DNA from: Chitinophagaceae bacterium
GTDB taxonomy: Bacteria; Bacteroidota; Bacteroidia; Chitinophagales; Chitinophagaceae
Length of the DNA: 64,000 nt
Assembly (NCBI GenBank): GCA_027489035.1
Contig: JAIYAN010000023.1
Coordinates: forward strand, 186,001 to 250,000
Direction: 5' to 3'
Shown here: piece by piece, positions 34,194 to 58,427 of the stretch
Numbering within the stretch: position 1 is the stretch's first letter
Layout of the letters: every line of letters starts with the position of its first letter
The notes under the pieces: model-generated
Told to the model about the DNA's origin: nothing
Database searches by the model: none
What the model saw: only the letters and a program-made list of their open reading frames with translations
Position numbers and translations under genes: made by a program

Positions 34194-34252
34194 GTTTTTT
34201 AAAAGGGTTTAAGGTTTAATGGTTTAAAAGTTTAATGGTTGAGGAGGTTTTT
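34194..34252. repeat. GTT/AAC repeat island after the exporter gene
   Basis: Plus-strand GGTTTAA/GGTTTAAT units (minus strand AACCATTA, AACTTTTA, AACCATTA, AACCTTA) with an 8-nt rather than 9-nt spacing begin immediately at the stop codon. The unit is related to the copies at 39.0 and 56.1 kb. Confidence 0.65.
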
Positions 34253-34316
34253 TTATTCCATTAATTTCAAAATATGCCCGATTTCTAAATCAAATAAAGA
34301 AAGACTTGTGTAAATA

Positions 34317-34347
34317 AAAAAAGAGCGTAATTAACGCTCTTTTTTTA
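34317..34347. terminator. Bidirectional terminator between exporter and H1/DksA-like genes
   Basis: AAAAGAGCGT (34319-34328) and ACGCTCTTTT (34334-34343) form a perfect 10-bp stem with a 5-nt loop. There are T runs on both strands, and it sits between converging genes. Confidence 0.85.
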
Positions 34348-34367
34348 TTATACTGTATATCATAAAA

Positions 34368-35498
34368 TTATTTCACTATTCCCATTTTTGCTTCGATGCT
34401 TAATGTAGCATGTGGCACTGCTCTTAATCTTGCTTTATCAATTAATTTACCGGTTACTCTACAAACGCCGTAAGTTTTACTTTCAATGCGCATTAAAGCT
34501 TTTTCCAAATGGTCGATAAACGTAATTTGGCGACTTGCCATTTGACTAAGTTGTTCTCTTTCCATGCTCAAGCTTCCATCTTCCATAGTCATGTAACGGT
34601 TTTCACTTTCATCACCACCATTTTCATCTTTTCTCGTAATAAGTCCCTGCAAATAATTCAATTCTTTTTTTGCAGAATCTATCTTGCGATGAATTAAATC
34701 TCTAAATTCTTGTAAATCATTATCTGAGTAACGAACCATTGGCGCACCTGGATCATTTTTTTGAGTGTCTAAAACTGATTTCATGAAATCAGGCGAGTAT
34801 TTCCTTACCGTTTTTGTTGTTATTGTAGGAATTACAACTGGCTTTGCTGCTGGAATTTTTATATCCTTAGGATTTTTTGCCATTGCTTTAATAACAGGCG
34901 CTTTTTCAACATGCTTTACTACTTCTGCTTTTTTCGCTTTTGGCGCTTCAACAACAGGTGCTTTTTTTGTTTCTTCTTTTTTAGATTTCATGGGGGGAGT
35001 GGGTGTTGTTGCTTTTGGTTTTGTAACAACAGCTGCAACAGGCTTTTTAACTTCGGCTTTTTTAACCAGAGTTGGTTTATTTTTAGTTGTTGCTACTTTT
35101 TTAGCAACAGCAATTGGTTTTGAGGGTTTTTTAGCAACTGGTTTTGTTGCTTGTACTTTTGTGTTTTTTACTGGCGTAGCTTTTTTGGCAACAGGTTTAG
35201 GAGTAGGCTTTGAAACAGGTTTAACAGGCACTTTAGCTTTAACTGCGGCTACTTTTTTAGCAACAGGTTTAGCAATTGGCTTGACTGCCTTTTTTGCTGG
35301 AGCTGCAACCTTTTTTACAGGTGCTTTAGCTTTTGCAGGCGCAGCTTTTTTTGCTACTGGTTTCGGAGCTGGCTTAGCTACTTTTTTTGCTGGTGCAGCT
35401 TTTTTTGCTACTGGTTTTGCAGCCGGCTTAACTACTTTTTTAGCAGGTACAGCAGCTTTTTTTGCTACTGGTTTCGCTGTTGGTTTTTTACTAGCCAT
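34368..35498 (-). CDS. Histone H1-like tail fused to a DksA/TraR-like domain
   Basis: A 376-aa fusion. Residues 1-225 are a low-complexity basic tail of KPVAKK, PAKK and APAKKV units, as in H1-like proteins. From about 230 (RKYSPDFMKSVLDTQKND) a DksA/TraR-like coiled-coil and finger domain follows, with ENRYMTMEDGS and YGVCRVTGKLIDKARL near the end. Of the four zinc-finger cysteines of DksA only the first is kept (YGVCRVTG, then RAVPHATLS), so zinc is probably not bound. It starts 2 nt after the ileS stop, so it is translationally coupled to ileS. The tail likely binds nucleic acid and the DksA-like part may bind RNA polymerase. The long opposite-strand frame is a shadow of the repeats. Confidence 0.85.
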   Translation of the reverse strand: MASKKPTAKPVAKKAAVPAKKVVKPAAKPVAKKAAPAKKVAKPAPKPVAKKAAPAKAKAPVKKVAAPAKKAVKPIAKPVAKKVAAVKAKVPVKPVSKPTPKPVAKKATPVKNTKVQATKPVAKKPSKPIAVAKKVATTKNKPTLVKKAEVKKPVAAVVTKPKATTPTPPMKSKKEETKKAPVVEAPKAKKAEVVKHVEKAPVIKAMAKNPKDIKIPAAKPVVIPTITTKTVRKYSPDFMKSVLDTQKNDPGAPMVRYSDNDLQEFRDLIHRKIDSAKKELNYLQGLITRKDENGGDESENRYMTMEDGSLSMEREQLSQMASRQITFIDHLEKALMRIESKTYGVCRVTGKLIDKARLRAVPHATLSIEAKMGIVK

Positions 35499-35500
35499 AA

Positions 35501-38500
35501 CTAGATCGTTTTTTTGTTAACACTTATATACAAAGCAACATCATTTACCTCAATTGTTTGGTTTGAAGTAAATGCTGATTGAAATTCTAGCGTGTCGGCT
35601 AGGATTTCCCGGCAAATATATGCTTTAAATTCAATTAAAGAAGGTGTTAATTCATCATTTTCCCCAACCACTACATTAATCTTATCGGTTAGTTCAAAGT
35701 TTTGTTCTTTGCGTATGGATTGAATTCGGTTGATGAATTCTCTTGCATTTCCTTCATTTTGAAGCACTTGTGTAATGGTAATGTCCAATGCAACGGTTAA
35801 ATTGCCCTTACCAGCAATCTCAAATCCTGGTATGCTATCGGTAATAATTTCTAAATCTTCACCCGAAATAATGATTGCTTCTTCCCCTTTTTCTACCATT
35901 TCGGCATTAAGAACATAGTCTCCAGCCTGAACTTTTTCAATCATTGCATTATCAAATTTCTCAATTTCATTGGCTGCCCATTTCATTTTAGCCCCCAATT
36001 TCTTTCCAAGTGTCTTGAAATTTGCCTTTGCTTTTTTTCTTATAAAATCATTTCCAGCATCTAAAAGTTCAATTTCTTTGATATTGGTTTCTGATTTAAT
36101 GATTTCTTCTACTTGTTTAATATTTTTTGCCATTTCCGCATCTAAAGCCGGGATAAATACTTTTTGAAGCGGTTGCCTTACTTTAATGTTTACTTTTTTA
36201 CGAATAGACAAGATTAAAGACGATGCATCTTGTGCGATTAACATCCTTTTTTCTAAATCTGCATTGATACTTTCTTCATTTGCAACCGGAAACAAACAGT
36301 GATGAACCGATTTTTGTTGAAACTTTTTTGTGGTTTCATTCAAATTGTTAAACAGCCAATCTGCAAAAAACGGTGCAATTGGTGCAATTAATTGAGAAAC
36401 GGTTTCTAAACACTCATATAATGTTTGGTAAGCACATTTTTTATCATGTTCATATTCTCCTTTCCAGAAGCGTCTTCTACATAAACGAACATACCAATTG
36501 CTCAATTGGGCATCTACAAAATCTTCTATTGCTCTACCCGCTTGCGTAGGTTCGTATGCATTTAGATTTTCAGTTACATTTTTAACCAATGTGTTTAATG
36601 AAGAAATAATCCATTGATCAATTTCTGGTCTTTCTGATAATGGAATATATTTTTCTTCAAATGCAAACCCATCTAAATTGGCATAAAGCGCAAAAAACTG
36701 ATACGTATTATATAACGTGCCGAAAAATTTACGTTGTACTTCTTTAATGCCTTCTTCATCAAATTTCAAGCTATCCCATGGAGACGCGTTGGTAATCAAA
36801 TACCATCTAGTAGCATCGGCACCATAATTATTAATCGTTTCAAATGGATCTACTACATTGCCTAAACGCTTACTCATCTTGTTCCCAGCTTTATCAAGCA
36901 CCAAACCATTACTCACTACTGTTTTGTAAGCAACGCTATCAAATAGCAACACACTTAATGCATGCAAGGTGTAAAACCATCCACGGGTTTGATCCACACC
37001 TTCGGCAATAAAATCTGCAGGAAAACTAGCTTCGAAAGTTTCTTTATTTTCAAATGGGAAATGCCATTGCGCATAAGGCATCGCACCACTGTCGAACCAA
37101 ACGTCAATCAAATCTGGAACCCTTTTCATCGGTTGGCCAGATTCGCTAACTAAAATAATATCATCAACAAAAGGCTTGTGTAAATCTGAAGTCAAATGTT
37201 GTATGTATTCATCAGGTGTTTGACCGTTTGTAATTTCAAAACATCCCGCTTCAAATGATTTTTTTAATTCGAATTTCAATTGCTCAACGGAGCCAATGCA
37301 AATTTGTTCTGCGCCATCTTCTGTTTTCCAAATGGGAAGCGGCGTACCCCAATAGCGGCTACGACTAAGATTCCAATCCACCATATTTTCTAGCCAATTG
37401 CCAAATCTACCAGAACCTGTACTAGCTGGTTTCCATTGAATGGTTTTGTTTAGTTCTACCATTCTGTCTTTTACTGCGGTAGTCTTAATAAACCAAGCAT
37501 CCAATGGGTAATAAATAATTGGTTTATCTGTTCTCCAGCAATGTGGGTAATTGTGCTCGTATTTCTCTACTTTGAAGGCGCGATTTTCCATTTTTAAACG
37601 AACAGAAATATCAATGTTTACATCAACATAATCCGCTTCGTCTTTATAATTTTTAACATAGCGACCGCTGTATTCCCCAACGCCATCAACAAATTTTCCT
37701 TGTTTATCTACCAAGGTTAAAATACCGATATTGTTTTTCTTTCCAACTTTATAATCATCTGCGCCAAATGCAGGAGCAGTATGCACAATTCCGGTTCCAT
37801 CTTCTGTAGTTACAAAGTCACCAATGATCACTTTGAATGGTGTTGCCCCAGGCGTTTCTTCTATAATTTTTTCTAAACTATTGGCTTCAAAAGGCAAAAG
37901 TTGTTCGTATTGCGCATTTTCCAATTCTTTGCCTTTCAGCGATGCTAAAATCTTCCATGGAATAGCTTTATCGCCTTCTTTATAACTATCGAAATCTACA
38001 TTTTCAGCATCTGCTTTGAAATATTTTCCAATTAGCGGCTTAGCTAAAATTACATTTATGGGTAAATAAGTATATGGATTAAAAGTGCTTACCAACACAT
38101 ATTCAATTTCTGGTCCAACGGTAAGTCCTAAGTTTGAAGGCAAAGTCCATGGCGTAGTGGTCCAAGCCATGAGATACATTTCTTTTTGCGCATGTTCACC
38201 CAAAGAAGAAATAGCAGCAGCTGGAAGAGTGTCATTTTTTACTTTAAACATCACCACAGCACTGGTATCTTTTACATCTTTATATGTACCTGGTTGATTA
38301 AGTTCATGAGAAGAAAGTCCGGTCCCAGCAGCAGGTGAGTATGGTTGAATACTTACGCTTTCGTATAAATAGCCTTTTTTATGAAGCTCGCTTAAACACC
38401 ACCAAAGTGTTTCAATATAATTGTTTTCAAAAGTTACATAAGGCGTTTTTAAATCTACCCAATAACCCATTTTTTGGGTAATGTCGTCCCATTTGTCTTT

Positions 38501-38887
38501 GAACTGCATTACCACTTCGCGACATTTTTTATTATAATCTTCAACAGATATTTTTTTGCCAATATCTTCTTTGGTGATACCCAATTGTTTTTCCACACCA
38601 AGTTCAACGGGAAGTCCGTGCGTATCCCAACCGCCTTTTCTATTTACTTGAAAACCTTGCATGGTTTTATAGCGGCAAACCAAATCTTTTAAGGTTCTGG
38701 AAATTACGTGATGAATACCTGGCATTCCGTTAGCGCTTGGCGGTCCTTCAAAAAAAACAAAAGGCTTATTGCCTTCACGAATAGAAATGCTATTTTGAAA
38801 AGATTGTTCAGATTCCCATTTTTCGAGAATTTCTTTACCAATATTGGGCAAATTAAGCTGCTGGTATTCTCGGTATTTAGACTTCAT
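35501..38887 (-). CDS. ileS: Isoleucyl-tRNA synthetase (long, eukaryote-like type)
   Basis: Class I synthetase charging tRNA-Ile. The HIGH motif is present as GIHHV within PPSANGMPGIHH near residue 55, and KMSKR as GNKMSKRLGN near 670. The editing domain lies between (TTPWTLPSN, DGTGIVHTAPAFGADDY). At 1128 aa, with an extended C-terminal region and no Cys4 zinc finger at the end, it is the long IleRS type shared with eukaryotes, which is generally insensitive to mupirocin; that property is inferred from type, not shown. It is the first gene of an operon with the H1/DksA-like gene. Confidence 0.96.
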   Translation of the reverse strand: MKSKYREYQQLNLPNIGKEILEKWESEQSFQNSISIREGNKPFVFFEGPPSANGMPGIHHVISRTLKDLVCRYKTMQGFQVNRKGGWDTHGLPVELGVEKQLGITKEDIGKKISVEDYNKKCREVVMQFKDKWDDITQKMGYWVDLKTPYVTFENNYIETLWWCLSELHKKGYLYESVSIQPYSPAAGTGLSSHELNQPGTYKDVKDTSAVVMFKVKNDTLPAAAISSLGEHAQKEMYLMAWTTTPWTLPSNLGLTVGPEIEYVLVSTFNPYTYLPINVILAKPLIGKYFKADAENVDFDSYKEGDKAIPWKILASLKGKELENAQYEQLLPFEANSLEKIIEETPGATPFKVIIGDFVTTEDGTGIVHTAPAFGADDYKVGKKNNIGILTLVDKQGKFVDGVGEYSGRYVKNYKDEADYVDVNIDISVRLKMENRAFKVEKYEHNYPHCWRTDKPIIYYPLDAWFIKTTAVKDRMVELNKTIQWKPASTGSGRFGNWLENMVDWNLSRSRYWGTPLPIWKTEDGAEQICIGSVEQLKFELKKSFEAGCFEITNGQTPDEYIQHLTSDLHKPFVDDIILVSESGQPMKRVPDLIDVWFDSGAMPYAQWHFPFENKETFEASFPADFIAEGVDQTRGWFYTLHALSVLLFDSVAYKTVVSNGLVLDKAGNKMSKRLGNVVDPFETINNYGADATRWYLITNASPWDSLKFDEEGIKEVQRKFFGTLYNTYQFFALYANLDGFAFEEKYIPLSERPEIDQWIISSLNTLVKNVTENLNAYEPTQAGRAIEDFVDAQLSNWYVRLCRRRFWKGEYEHDKKCAYQTLYECLETVSQLIAPIAPFFADWLFNNLNETTKKFQQKSVHHCLFPVANEESINADLEKRMLIAQDASSLILSIRKKVNIKVRQPLQKVFIPALDAEMAKNIKQVEEIIKSETNIKEIELLDAGNDFIRKKAKANFKTLGKKLGAKMKWAANEIEKFDNAMIEKVQAGDYVLNAEMVEKGEEAIIISGEDLEIITDSIPGFEIAGKGNLTVALDITITQVLQNEGNAREFINRIQSIRKEQNFELTDKINVVVGENDELTPSLIEFKAYICREILADTLEFQSAFTSNQTIEVNDVALYISVNKKTI

Positions 38888-38921
38888 ACACGTAAAAAAT
38901 AAAAATTTATAAAATTGTCCG

Positions 38922-38952
38922 CGAAGTTAATGAAATGAAATAGGAAAGCAAA
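38922..38952 (-). promoter_or_regulatory. Near-consensus promoter of ileS
   Basis: On the minus strand TTTG (38952-38949), 19 nt, then TAACTTCG (38929-38922). The spacing is exact and the -7 element differs from TAnnTTTG at one base. It ends 34 nt before the ileS ATG. Confidence 0.65.
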
Positions 38953-38954
38953 AA

Positions 38955-39065
38955 GAGGGTTTTGTAGGGGTTTGTGATGTTTATGAGGTTTGAGATGTTT
39001 GAGAGGTTTAACGGTTTAATGGTTTAAGTCGCTACGCTGGTTGACCAAACACCAAACACCAAACA
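38955..39065. repeat. AAC-nonamer island plus CCAAACA heptamers
   Basis: On the minus strand the units read AACCATTA, AACCGTTA, AACCTCTCA, AACATCTCA, AACCTCATA, AACATCACA, AACCCCTAC (39028 down to 38955). Next to this, 39045-39065 on the plus strand is three copies of CCAAACA. Between them is GTCGCTACGCTGG, matching the CCAGCGAAGCGATTTA segment at 56151-56164 in inverse orientation. It lies between the 5' side of ileS and the stop of the AraC-type gene. Confidence 0.75.
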
Positions 39066-39067
39066 AT

Positions 39068-40009
39068 CTACCTCCCCAGCAATTCACAAGGTTTCAACCC
39101 CGTATGATTTTTAAAGCCTGTACTAAAATGAGAAATTGAAGAATATCCCAACATTGCGGATACCTCGGTTACGCTTAGGCCTTTTTCGTAAAGTAAGTAT
39201 TTGGCATGTTCCATACGTTGACTTTGATAAAAATCAAAAATGGTGGTACCGAATATTTCTTTAAATCCTTGTTTGAGATAGCATTCGTTGATGGCTACTT
39301 TTCGGCTCAAAGCCTTAATGGTTATAGGTTCTCCAATATGTTGCAACAATATTTCCCTTGATTGAATGATTTTTTCGCGGTCTTCTGGGTTAGATAAAAA
39401 CTTACAACCAAATGTTGTTTCATCTTTACTGCCCAACATACAATCTGTACTGTATAATAGGATGATTTGCGTTTGCGCGTTTATGAAAATATTTTCTCTT
39501 GTATCGGTATAATTATGATTTAGCAAAGCTTGGATCGCAGAAGTGGTTTTGCTGCAAAGCGGGCCTATTTTATTAAAAGGTTCATTATGTGAAAACGAAA
39601 CAACGGTGTCAATAAGCGTTCCATCATTTTTATTCGATTTTGCAAATTGGTTTAGATAGCTAGGTGTGTATATAAAGCTTAGCACATCAACGCTTTCAAT
39701 CTTTTCAACACAGCTAGCCGACTCGTTAAATTTACAACGGTCACACTCCATCAATTTCTCTCTACAATAATAGTTGCCAGAAACACAAAAACGGAGTTCT
39801 AGGTGGTTTTCTTCCGGATGTTGCGCATCGAAATGATAAATCAACATGCCTGAATCTTCAATTTGCCAGTTGGGCTGTTTGCGATATCTTTTTATTGAAT
39901 ATTTTACAGAACCAGGCACTTGGCGATTGATATCTTGTAAAATATTCACTTCGTCGTATAGTAACGGCAAAGCGCTCGAAATGTCTAATATATTGGGTAG
40001 CGATTTCAT
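39068..40009 (-). CDS. AraC-family transcriptional regulator with a cysteine cluster
   Basis: A 313-aa regulator. The C-terminal 100 residues are a double helix-turn-helix AraC domain (ITIKALSRKVAINECYLKQ, GTTIFDFYQSQRMEHAKYLL, VTEVSAMLGYSSISHFS, TGLKPCELLG). The N-terminal sensor region has a tight set of cysteines, Cys82-x6-Cys89-x2-Cys92-x7-Cys100, with Cys75 nearby, which could bind a metal or sense redox state. No effector is known. It is divergent from gyrB across about 200 nt; a target cannot be named from the context. Confidence 0.88.
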   Translation of the reverse strand: MKSLPNILDISSALPLLYDEVNILQDINRQVPGSVKYSIKRYRKQPNWQIEDSGMLIYHFDAQHPEENHLELRFCVSGNYYCREKLMECDRCKFNESASCVEKIESVDVLSFIYTPSYLNQFAKSNKNDGTLIDTVVSFSHNEPFNKIGPLCSKTTSAIQALLNHNYTDTRENIFINAQTQIILLYSTDCMLGSKDETTFGCKFLSNPEDREKIIQSREILLQHIGEPITIKALSRKVAINECYLKQGFKEIFGTTIFDFYQSQRMEHAKYLLYEKGLSVTEVSAMLGYSSISHFSTGFKNHTGLKPCELLGR

Positions 40010-56186: not shown

Positions 56187-58427
56187 CTACTTCTTCTCTT
56201 CCATTTCGTAACGGTCAACTTTTTCAATACCCGGTAAAGCAAGTAGTTTTTTTACCAATAAATCCAATTGTTCTTTGTCTTGTACATATACTTTTACATT
56301 GCCTTCAAATACGCCGTCGTGTGCTTCAATGGTCATTGCGGAGATATTGATTTTCAGTTCGCCGCTAAGCAGATTGGTGATTTTATGGATTACCCCAACA
56401 TCATCTAAACCTAATATTTTTAAGCCCGTAAGGAAAGAAATTTCTTTATTTTTTGCCCATTTGGTTTTTACCACGCGGTGCCCATAATTGGCCAATAATC
56501 TAGTAGCATTTGGACAACTCGTTCTGTGAATTTTAAGGCCTTCACCTGTTGTAATAAAACCAAATACATCATCACCCGGGATTGGCTTACAACAATTTGC
56601 CAAGGTGTACATGATTTTATCGCTACGTTCGCCAAATATGATTAGCTCAGTATCTTTTTTGGGTAATGACTTTAATTCATTTTCATCAAATTTCTCTTCT
56701 GGTATCTTTAATGGTTTCGGCGCAATTAATTTATCAACATGTATGGTAAATTCCTTTAGTTCTTTAAGCTCATTTTTTTTGATGGCGATATCATATAGCA
56801 AATCCAAACTGCTTGGATATTTATAAAAATTAACCAATTCATCAATATTTGTTTGATGGAAAGAAGCGTTTAAAGCTTTTAATTTCCTTTCCAAAATACT
56901 TTTCCCCAAATCGGCAATTTGTCTACGTTCATCTTTTAATGAGTCTTTTATTTTAGCTCTAGCCTTCGACGTTACAACAAAATTCAACCATTCTGCATTG
57001 GGTTTCTGCTTAGCACTGGTGATGATTTCTATTTGATCGCCACTTCTTAATTTATAACTTAAAGGCACCAATTTGTGATTCACTTTTGCACCTATACATT
57101 TTTCCCCAACTGCAGTATGTACGCTAAAGGCAAAGTCTAATGTACTTGCCCCAACAGGAAGCATTTTTATATCACCTTTGGGCGTATACACGTAAATCTC
57201 TTCTGATAAAAACGAAGTTTTGAAATCCTGTAAAAAATCGAGCGAATTGGTGTCTTGATTGGCTAATGCTTCCCTGATCTGATTAAACCATTTGTCGAAA
57301 TTACTTTCATCATCTTTTTCTTCTTTGTATTTCCAATGTGCAGCTAAACCTTTTTCTGCAATATCATTCATACGCTTTGTTCTGATTTGAACTTCTACCC
57401 ATTTTCCCATTGGTCCCATTACCGTGGTGTGCAAAGCCTCGTAGCCATTACTTTTAGGGTTGCTCAACCAATCTCTAAGTCGCTCTGGCGAAGGGTTGTA
57501 TTCATCTGTGATGATGCTATATATTTTCCAACAATCTTCTTTTTCTTTTTCTGGTATTGCATTCAAAATAATTCGAATGGCAAATAAATCATACACCTCT
57601 TCAAATGAAACGCCTTTCTTTTTAATTTTTGTCCAAATGGAATGTATGCTTTTTGGTCTGCCGTAAATTTCAAATTCCAAACCAGTGGATTGCAATTTTT
57701 CTTTTAATGGCTTGATGAAATCATTGATGTAACGCGTTCTTTCTCTTTTAGTATCTTGAAGTTTTTTGGCAATAAACTTATATGTTTCAGATTCCATGTA
57801 TTTCATGGATAAATCTTCCATTTCTGTTTTGATGTTGTAAAGCCCCATACGGTGTGCCAATGGCGCATAAACATAAATGGTTTCTGATGAGATTTTAAGT
57901 TGTTTCTCTCGCTTCAAACTATCAAGCGTTCGCATGTTGTGAAGCCGATCAGCAAGTTTTATTAAAATCACCCTTGGGTCATCGGTTAATGTGAGCAGAA
58001 TCTTTTTGAAATTTTCAGCTTGTTGACTGGTGTTGGCATCCATTACGTTGGCAATCTTGGTAAGACCATCAACGATTTTTGTGATTTCAATTCCAAATTC
58101 TCTTTTAATATCATCAAGGGTAATGTCGGTATCTTCAACGGTGTCGTGTAAAAGTGCACAAATGCTACTTCTAACACCCAACCCAATTTCTTCAACGCAT
58201 ATTTTAGCAACGGCAATGGGATGTAAAATATAGGGCTCGCCACTTTTGCGCCTCATGGTTTTATGGGCATTAACCGCCATTTCAAATGCAGAGCGCACCA
58301 GTTCTTTATCTCCTGGTTTCATTTTTTGTTTTAAAACCCTCAATAATCCACGATATTCTCTAAGAATTTCTTTTTTTTCTTCCTCTTCGGAAAGATGATA
58401 GGTTGATATGTTTTCTGTATTTGGCAT
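56187..58427 (-). CDS. RelA/SpoT homologue, bifunctional (p)ppGpp synthetase/hydrolase
   Basis: Controls the stringent response. Across 746 aa: HD hydrolase domain with GEPYILHPIAVAKI, LLHDTVEDTDIT near 90 and ADRLHNMRTL near 160; synthetase domain near 240-380 (EIYGRPKSIHSIWTKIKK, YDLFAIRIIL, GYEALHTTVMGP); TGS domain near 400-460 (EEIYVYTPKGDIKMLP, DFAFSVHTAVG); a zinc-type conserved Cys region (LANCCKPIPGDDVFGF); and a C-terminal ACT domain (ILGLDDVGVIHKITNLLS). Both catalytic HD residues are kept, so it is probably a Rel-type bifunctional enzyme. Confidence 0.95.
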   Translation of the reverse strand: MPNTENISTYHLSEEEEKKEILREYRGLLRVLKQKMKPGDKELVRSAFEMAVNAHKTMRRKSGEPYILHPIAVAKICVEEIGLGVRSSICALLHDTVEDTDITLDDIKREFGIEITKIVDGLTKIANVMDANTSQQAENFKKILLTLTDDPRVILIKLADRLHNMRTLDSLKREKQLKISSETIYVYAPLAHRMGLYNIKTEMEDLSMKYMESETYKFIAKKLQDTKRERTRYINDFIKPLKEKLQSTGLEFEIYGRPKSIHSIWTKIKKKGVSFEEVYDLFAIRIILNAIPEKEKEDCWKIYSIITDEYNPSPERLRDWLSNPKSNGYEALHTTVMGPMGKWVEVQIRTKRMNDIAEKGLAAHWKYKEEKDDESNFDKWFNQIREALANQDTNSLDFLQDFKTSFLSEEIYVYTPKGDIKMLPVGASTLDFAFSVHTAVGEKCIGAKVNHKLVPLSYKLRSGDQIEIITSAKQKPNAEWLNFVVTSKARAKIKDSLKDERRQIADLGKSILERKLKALNASFHQTNIDELVNFYKYPSSLDLLYDIAIKKNELKELKEFTIHVDKLIAPKPLKIPEEKFDENELKSLPKKDTELIIFGERSDKIMYTLANCCKPIPGDDVFGFITTGEGLKIHRTSCPNATRLLANYGHRVVKTKWAKNKEISFLTGLKILGLDDVGVIHKITNLLSGELKINISAMTIEAHDGVFEGNVKVYVQDKEQLDLLVKKLLALPGIEKVDRYEMEEKK

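Follow-up and report, generated by a model that had tools for sequence, protein, structure and literature searches.

Organisation of the locus

The window, i.e. the whole stretch of 64,000 nucleotides that was analysed, carries a gene whose product joins a basic, histone H1-like tail to a DksA/TraR-type domain (Table 1). Such a fusion had been proposed in an earlier note on this DNA and proved to be real: the reading frame of 376 amino acids is intact, and the protein reaches 31.9 bits against the Pfam family PF01258 (cut-off 24.9), with no other Pfam family above its cut-off. Against the NCBIfam DksA equivalog TIGR02420 it scores 44.7 bits and stays below the cut-off of 115.5. The tail had been estimated at about 225 residues, which is nearly right, because the K/A/P-rich part ends at about residue 212 and residues 213-252 form a different, conserved linker. 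Residues 1-252 together contain 69 K, 50 A, 38 P and 37 V.

Table 1. Features of the DksA-like gene and its surroundings, with positions in the window
Feature	Position	Strand	Basis
CDS of 376 aa: H1-like tail, linker and DksA/TraR-type domain	34368..35498	-	ATG start, intact ORF
Tail rich in K, A, P and V (residues 1-212); disorder expected from composition	34863..35498	-	sequence, composition
Conserved linker, residues 213-252 (KDIK...KPVVIP.ITTKTVRKYSPDFMKSVLD...DPGA)	34743..34862	-	comparison of relatives
DksA/TraR-type domain, residues 253-376: predicted helical hairpin and finger without four cysteines	34371..34742	-	profile, model
Region around the tip of the coiled coil (residues 294-309), acidic as far as MEDGS; modelled with low confidence	34572..34619	-	alignment, model
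Sole remaining finger cysteine, C346 (YGVCRVTG)	34461..34463	-	sequence
ileS, 1128 aa, upstream of the DksA-like gene	35501..38887	-	ORF; adjacency kept in relatives
Palindrome A7-GAGCGT-aatta-ACGCTC-T7 between converging genes	34316..34346	no strand	by eye in the sequence

The gap of 2 nt between ileS and the start of the DksA-like gene (35499-35500), already described in the earlier note, was confirmed from the ORF coordinates. On the other flank lies a converging ABC-transporter gene. The palindrome between the two converging genes is likely to act as a two-way terminator; it was spotted by eye and is absent from the output of the terminator scan. A promoter scan of positions 34200-39200 gave 12 promoter-like sites, compared with 15.3 in shuffled sequences. 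An ORF of 251 aa on the plus strand (34765-35520) mirrors the DksA-like gene and is an antisense shadow of its repetitive tail.

A profile search of the 3.0-Mb source genome (G000) found one match to PF01258, which is the window gene. The only RelA/SpoT-domain match of this genome is also located in the window (57315-57662, minus strand), some 22 kb away from the gene studied here. A search for further tailed proteins in the source genome returned the window gene and a read-through of it in a second frame (11 stops), low-complexity searches of this kind being weak. The single lspA match lies on a different contig from the window gene; in two other loci (L154 and L050), an lspA-like frame was recognised by eye 3' of the DksA-like gene.

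Fold and key residues of the DksA-like domain

For residues 201-376, a model was built with AlphaFold2 on 38 sequences. Its mean pLDDT is 78, with ten-residue blocks of 80-97 over most of the hairpin and of 82-97 in the C-terminal part. Low confidence was found for blocks at the hairpin tip (55 and 64) and in the linker (47-62). The top solved match in VIA-align was DksA2 of Pseudomonas aeruginosa (4ijj; Z 13.7, rmsd 2.1, 113 aligned residues), followed by Escherichia coli DksA (1tjl; Z 13.4, rmsd 3.3, 119 aligned residues), and unrelated helical hairpins appear from Z 8.5. According to the model, the domain has the DksA fold; at the tip of the coiled coil, for which the earlier note had proposed structure prediction, the confidence is low.

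In E. coli DksA, the acidic residue at the coiled-coil tip is D74. Acidic residues, considered in the earlier note to be needed for an action on the polymerase, are kept in the window protein: alignment column E106 (residue 306, in MEDGS) is acidic in 38 of 38 rows (E 35, D 3), the register to D74 being unsure. A gap-free alignment to the Chlamydia protein 6ptg uses MEDGS, whereas in the profile alignment the E. coli tip falls on GGDESE, which precedes MEDGS; both stretches are acidic. Over the 117 Chitinophagaceae loci, the tip motif is MEDGS in 113, MEDGG in three and LEDGS in one. Since the predicted fold is combined with an acidic tip, an action of the domain in the secondary channel of RNA polymerase is plausible.

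E. coli DksA contacts ppGpp (site 2) through K98, R129 and K139. In the profile alignment these residues correspond to H330, V361 and K371, so that one of three is kept. The K98 column contains H in 25 of the 38 rows, N in four, D in four, Q in two, S in two and K in one; the R129 column is V and the K139 column K in all 38. With two of the three contacts replaced, the link to stringent control suggested in the earlier note is weakened.

The single Cys of the window protein is C346, in agreement with the earlier count of one out of four finger cysteines. All 117 Chitinophagaceae loci have one Cys in the domain. In the phylum survey described below, one Cys in the finger region was found in 47 of 78 rows and in 29 of 45 families; these rows are the 45 rows of the window's class, covering all of its 27 sampled families, together with f31 and f57, and the remaining 31 rows have 3-6 Cys. 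As the whole sampled class of the window has one Cys, the finger cysteines were lost early and throughout the class, and their absence is no peculiarity of the window gene. Out of 14 pairs of relatives, dN/dS of the domain could be computed for 12 and lay between 0 and 0.06; the domain is thus under very strong constraint.

The DksA proteins of E. coli (1tjl, 5vsw, 7khi) and DksA2 of P. aeruginosa (4ijj) share the predicted fold of the C-terminal 125 residues of the window protein; acidic residues occur in the hairpin tip here as there, in an unsure register. In DksA2, too, the set of four cysteines is incomplete, with two in the aligned part. The window protein differs from DksA by its one Cys, the equivalog score below the cut-off, the replacement of K98 and R129 and the long basic N-terminal tail. 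Short TraR/DksA proteins of Bacteroidia (about 127 aa) have the same domain with one Cys and are in many cases located beside ileS, but they have neither the tail nor the PDF.KSVLD-type linker of the window protein.

Constraint on the basic tail in Chitinophagaceae

The 5' end is complete in 111 of the 117 Chitinophagaceae loci, some of which come from the same genomes, and every one of the 111 has the tail. The tailed form is therefore the normal form in Chitinophagaceae, and the window gene is an ordinary case. One further gene of the Chitinophagaceae type, with a domain 90% identical, was found on a MAG contig titled Streptomyces griseus (L066); the organism label is probably wrong.

Contrary to the expectation of the earlier note that tail length should not vary freely, the part before the domain, linker included, ranges from 142 to 268 aa in the 111 loci. 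The longest tail of the phylum survey, a K/A/P repeat region of about 508 residues on the N-terminal side of the domain, belongs to another family (L142, G048, family f14). Indels in the tail are common between close relatives. Composition and charge were analyzed for 70 less redundant rows (69 from Chitinophagaceae and L054): the K content is 18-34% (median 27%), and the net charge, between +13 and +61 (median +46), is positive in all rows. In 13 of the 14 pairs of relatives, which are partly non-independent, dN/dS of the tail is 0.10-0.37; the remaining pair shows 0.84 at a dS of just 0.02. From the varying length and the preserved charge and dN/dS it follows that tail length drifts while positive charge and composition are kept.

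Between tail and domain, the linker carries a motif of the [FY]..S[VIL]LD type (PDF.KSVLD-type) in 113 of the 117 Chitinophagaceae loci, and the four misses include L077, which is cut by a contig end. This is possibly a short binding motif. A conserved internal start for a tail-less product in Chitinophagaceae was considered and rejected: most of the relatives compared have T, I or another residue in place of the Met in FMKSVLD and PMVRYSD of the window protein.

The ileS neighbourhood

In 108 of the 117 Chitinophagaceae loci, ileS ends between -20 and +9 nt from the start of the DksA-like gene. Six of the other nine loci are cut at the contig end on the 5' side, and three have no ileS in the available stretch. 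The coupling to ileS, to which the earlier note had drawn attention, is thus conserved. It also exists beside tail-less relatives, where gaps of 0-10 nt were found, e.g., in L042, L043, L045-L053, L055 and L060; in L041, L044, L056 and L058, ileS was not found beside the DksA-like gene. Since tail-less relatives often share the ileS neighbour, the coupling follows the domain and not the tail. Taken with the class-wide loss of cysteines, this argues that neither feature is tied to the tail. The DksA-like gene may be controlled by the transcription of ileS or co-transcribed with it. In G114, a frame of 1307 aa had suggested that ileS and the DksA-like gene are naturally fused; this was discarded, as a stop is seen between the two genes.

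Recurrence of tails across the phylum

All 198 genomes of the phylum sample contain the domain, as do 55 of 59 relatives, including 43 of 43 genomes of good quality. For the survey of tails, one to several loci were read in each of 46 families, of which 45 were kept (f56 was dropped), giving 78 rows; f31, f57, f40 and f50 were scored as lacking a tail. Tails occur in 22 of the 45 families. In the window's class, a long basic tail (110-508 aa) was found in eight of 27 families (f1, f3, f4, f8, f14, f16, f19 and f27). The other 19 families of the class have a tail-less domain, so that the tail is dispensable for the core role. Outside the class, a lysine-rich tail of 38-368 aa was found in 14 of 18 families, and that of f42 lies in another frame. 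Two loci of family f18 (L152, L160) have no N-terminal tail; their C-terminal extensions are lysine-rich and then acidic.

On a domain tree of the 78 rows, built by a quick method on 120 columns and with many forks unresolved, the label for the tail needs eight changes, five of them forced by starred branches. This points to at least five to eight gains or losses of the tail. Together with its presence in 22 of 45 families, the label changes suggest that the tail is an old partner of the DksA clade which was repeatedly lost or regained. This is a phylum in which a factor of the secondary-channel type was repeatedly joined to an H1-like tail; by this joining, a single molecule could couple the control of transcription to binding of the nucleoid.

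Tail and domain in different frames in family f42

Family f42 lies outside the window's class and is represented here by 23 genomes of seven genera (loci L163-L185), all of which contain the DksA-like domain. In the 19 of 23 loci that were parsed by script, the tail is a separate ORF which starts with ATG (mostly MAAAKKAAKK...), ends with KKKAK and a stop or similar, and has an AGG-containing stretch 5' of its ATG. Relative to the tail ORF, the DksA-like frame is -1 in all 19. The other four (L168, L176, L179 and L185) lie at contig edges or were lost to the tail-ORF filter, and in three of them the end of the tail is visible at the run. The two frames meet at a run of adenines, which was found in all 23 loci as A10 (22 loci) or A11 (one locus), and the tail stop follows 0-9 nt past the run in the 21 loci parsed for it.

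This run stands out from its surroundings. Two other A or T runs of at least eight bases occur in the 74,390 bases of the f42 loci. In five whole f42 genomes, the pattern NGC-A10-G was found once in four and twice in G162, compared with a single occurrence, in G162, of the reversed control pattern. Upstream of the run, the tail frame uses AAG for lysine 583 times and AAA 82 times; the three consecutive AAA codons in each genome are hence not a codon habit. From the run to a conserved GTG or ATG, the domain frame is free of stops in 23 of 23 loci, whereas each of the other frames contains at least one stop per locus. Changes at the three codon positions of the linker (130/106/165 over 12 pairs) show a weak bias, and its coding nature follows mainly from the open frame.

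The junction points to programmed transcriptional slippage (or -1 frameshifting), by which a free tail and a tail-DksA fusion would be produced. An RNA structure 3' of the run that might stimulate frameshifting was not detected (mean z of -0.01 over 23 loci), and slippage of the polymerase therefore fits better than structure-aided ribosomal frameshifting. The unslipped mRNA would encode a free basic protein of about 80-120 aa, and the slipped mRNA, or -1 slippage of the ribosome, the tail-DksA fusion. It is reasonably likely that f42 has one gene in which slippage at A10/A11 yields the free H1-like protein and the fusion at a set ratio, and that the in-frame fusions of Chitinophagaceae are a fixed form of the same pairing. 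Judging by the run, it may matter to the cell that tail and domain are paired and in which proportion free and fused tail are made. As the product would act on RNA polymerase, the level of the fusion may even feed back on slippage. Release factor 2, which regulates its own frameshift, is a known case of such feedback.

A tail-less product is possible as well. About 46-57 codons past the run, behind an AGGA-like stretch, lies a conserved GTG (18 loci), ATG (four) or GCG (one, L170), in a context of the type AGCA.CAAGTAGGAAC-GTG/ATG-ACG. In this stretch, the identity of codons for the same amino acid is 0.89; the values are 0.62 on its 5' side, 0.69 on its 3' side and 0.43 within the domain. Because of this position and the raised codon conservation, the site could start a tail-less DksA-like product, with or without slippage.

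An arrangement similar to that of f42 is described for dnaX, where a run of about ten A lies at the end of one frame and the next frame is open. In the available part of that report, nine dnaX genes with 10 A align with the Thermus motif and are assigned to programmed transcriptional realignment, and three dnaX genes of Chlorobi have 9, 8 and 7 A (PMC3711429). PF02327, taken up as a possible marker of Chlorobi, gave no match in nine genomes of f42 and f45, and the control also gave none. In contrast to dnaX, the partners brought together by the slip in f42 would be a DksA-like factor and an H1-like protein; the words DksA, TraR and histone are absent from the main text of the dnaX report (PMC3711429). 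A study of E. coli polymerase reports that this enzyme slips more readily at T runs than at A runs and that, in its poly-A test, slippage did not reach the detection limit (PMC6260861), which counts against a high efficiency of slippage in E. coli. Among the matches listed from the open part of PubMed Central, we recognised no report of a DksA with a tail or a frameshift, and the f42 arrangement would be the part likely to surprise a specialist. In annotation, genes of this type are readily split in two or taken for a frameshifted pseudogene.

Proposed function of the tailed factor

Gene structure, conservation, the likeness of the predicted model to DksA, the constraint on the tail and its recurrence in the phylum are directly supported. 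We infer binding to the polymerase, binding to DNA and independence of ppGpp for the window protein. It seems somewhat probable that the gene, as the sole factor of the DksA/TraR clan found in its Chitinophagaceae genome, combines a secondary-channel domain with a nucleic-acid-binding tail that is selected for bulk charge, and that it does not need a ppGpp site of the E. coli type. The domain, with a DksA fold of the Bacteroidia type lacking the four finger cysteines, would most likely insert its acidic tip into the secondary channel of RNA polymerase. The basic tail, expected to be disordered, would most likely bind nucleic acid by charge and thereby keep the factor and the bound polymerase at the nucleoid. 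Selection would act on the bulk charge of the tail and not on its length, and the factor probably works without the E. coli-type ppGpp site at the interface of DksA and polymerase. The conserved run at the junction of tail ORF and domain frame in f42 argues for a functional joint between tail and domain.

Instead of DNA, the ligand of the tail could be RNA or polyphosphate. We regard it as unlikely, but worth weighing first among the alternatives, that the tail is a polyphosphate- or RNA-binding or condensing segment similar to that of P. aeruginosa AlgP, through which the factor would enter granules or condensates during starvation, and that it does not coat DNA. AlgP has a KPAA-type tail of like composition, a K/A/P repeat segment of about 150-200 residues; the protein is located at polyphosphate granules, and its KPAA tail is required for their normal number and spacing (PMC9239181). 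However, the AlgP tail sits at the C-terminus, next to a different folded domain (PMC9239181), whereas that of the window protein is N-terminal, and the only family above the cut-off in the window protein is PF01258.

Rather improbable is the full proposal of the earlier note, in which the factor would serve the stringent response and its tail would connect the structure of the nucleoid with control by ppGpp. The predicted DksA fold, the genome's single RelA/SpoT match in the same window and the neighbouring ileS are in line with it; the replacement of the K98 and R129 equivalents, the latter by V in every row, and the loss of the finger cysteines speak against it.

Slightly less probable still is a nearly functionless low-complexity expansion, persisting since repeats grow and shrink easily: the variable length, the frequent indels between close relatives, the many families lacking a tail and the one pair with a high dN/dS would suit it, but the low dN/dS of the other 13 pairs, the invariably positive charge, the tail in every complete Chitinophagaceae locus and the conserved run at which tail and domain frame meet in f42 stand against it.
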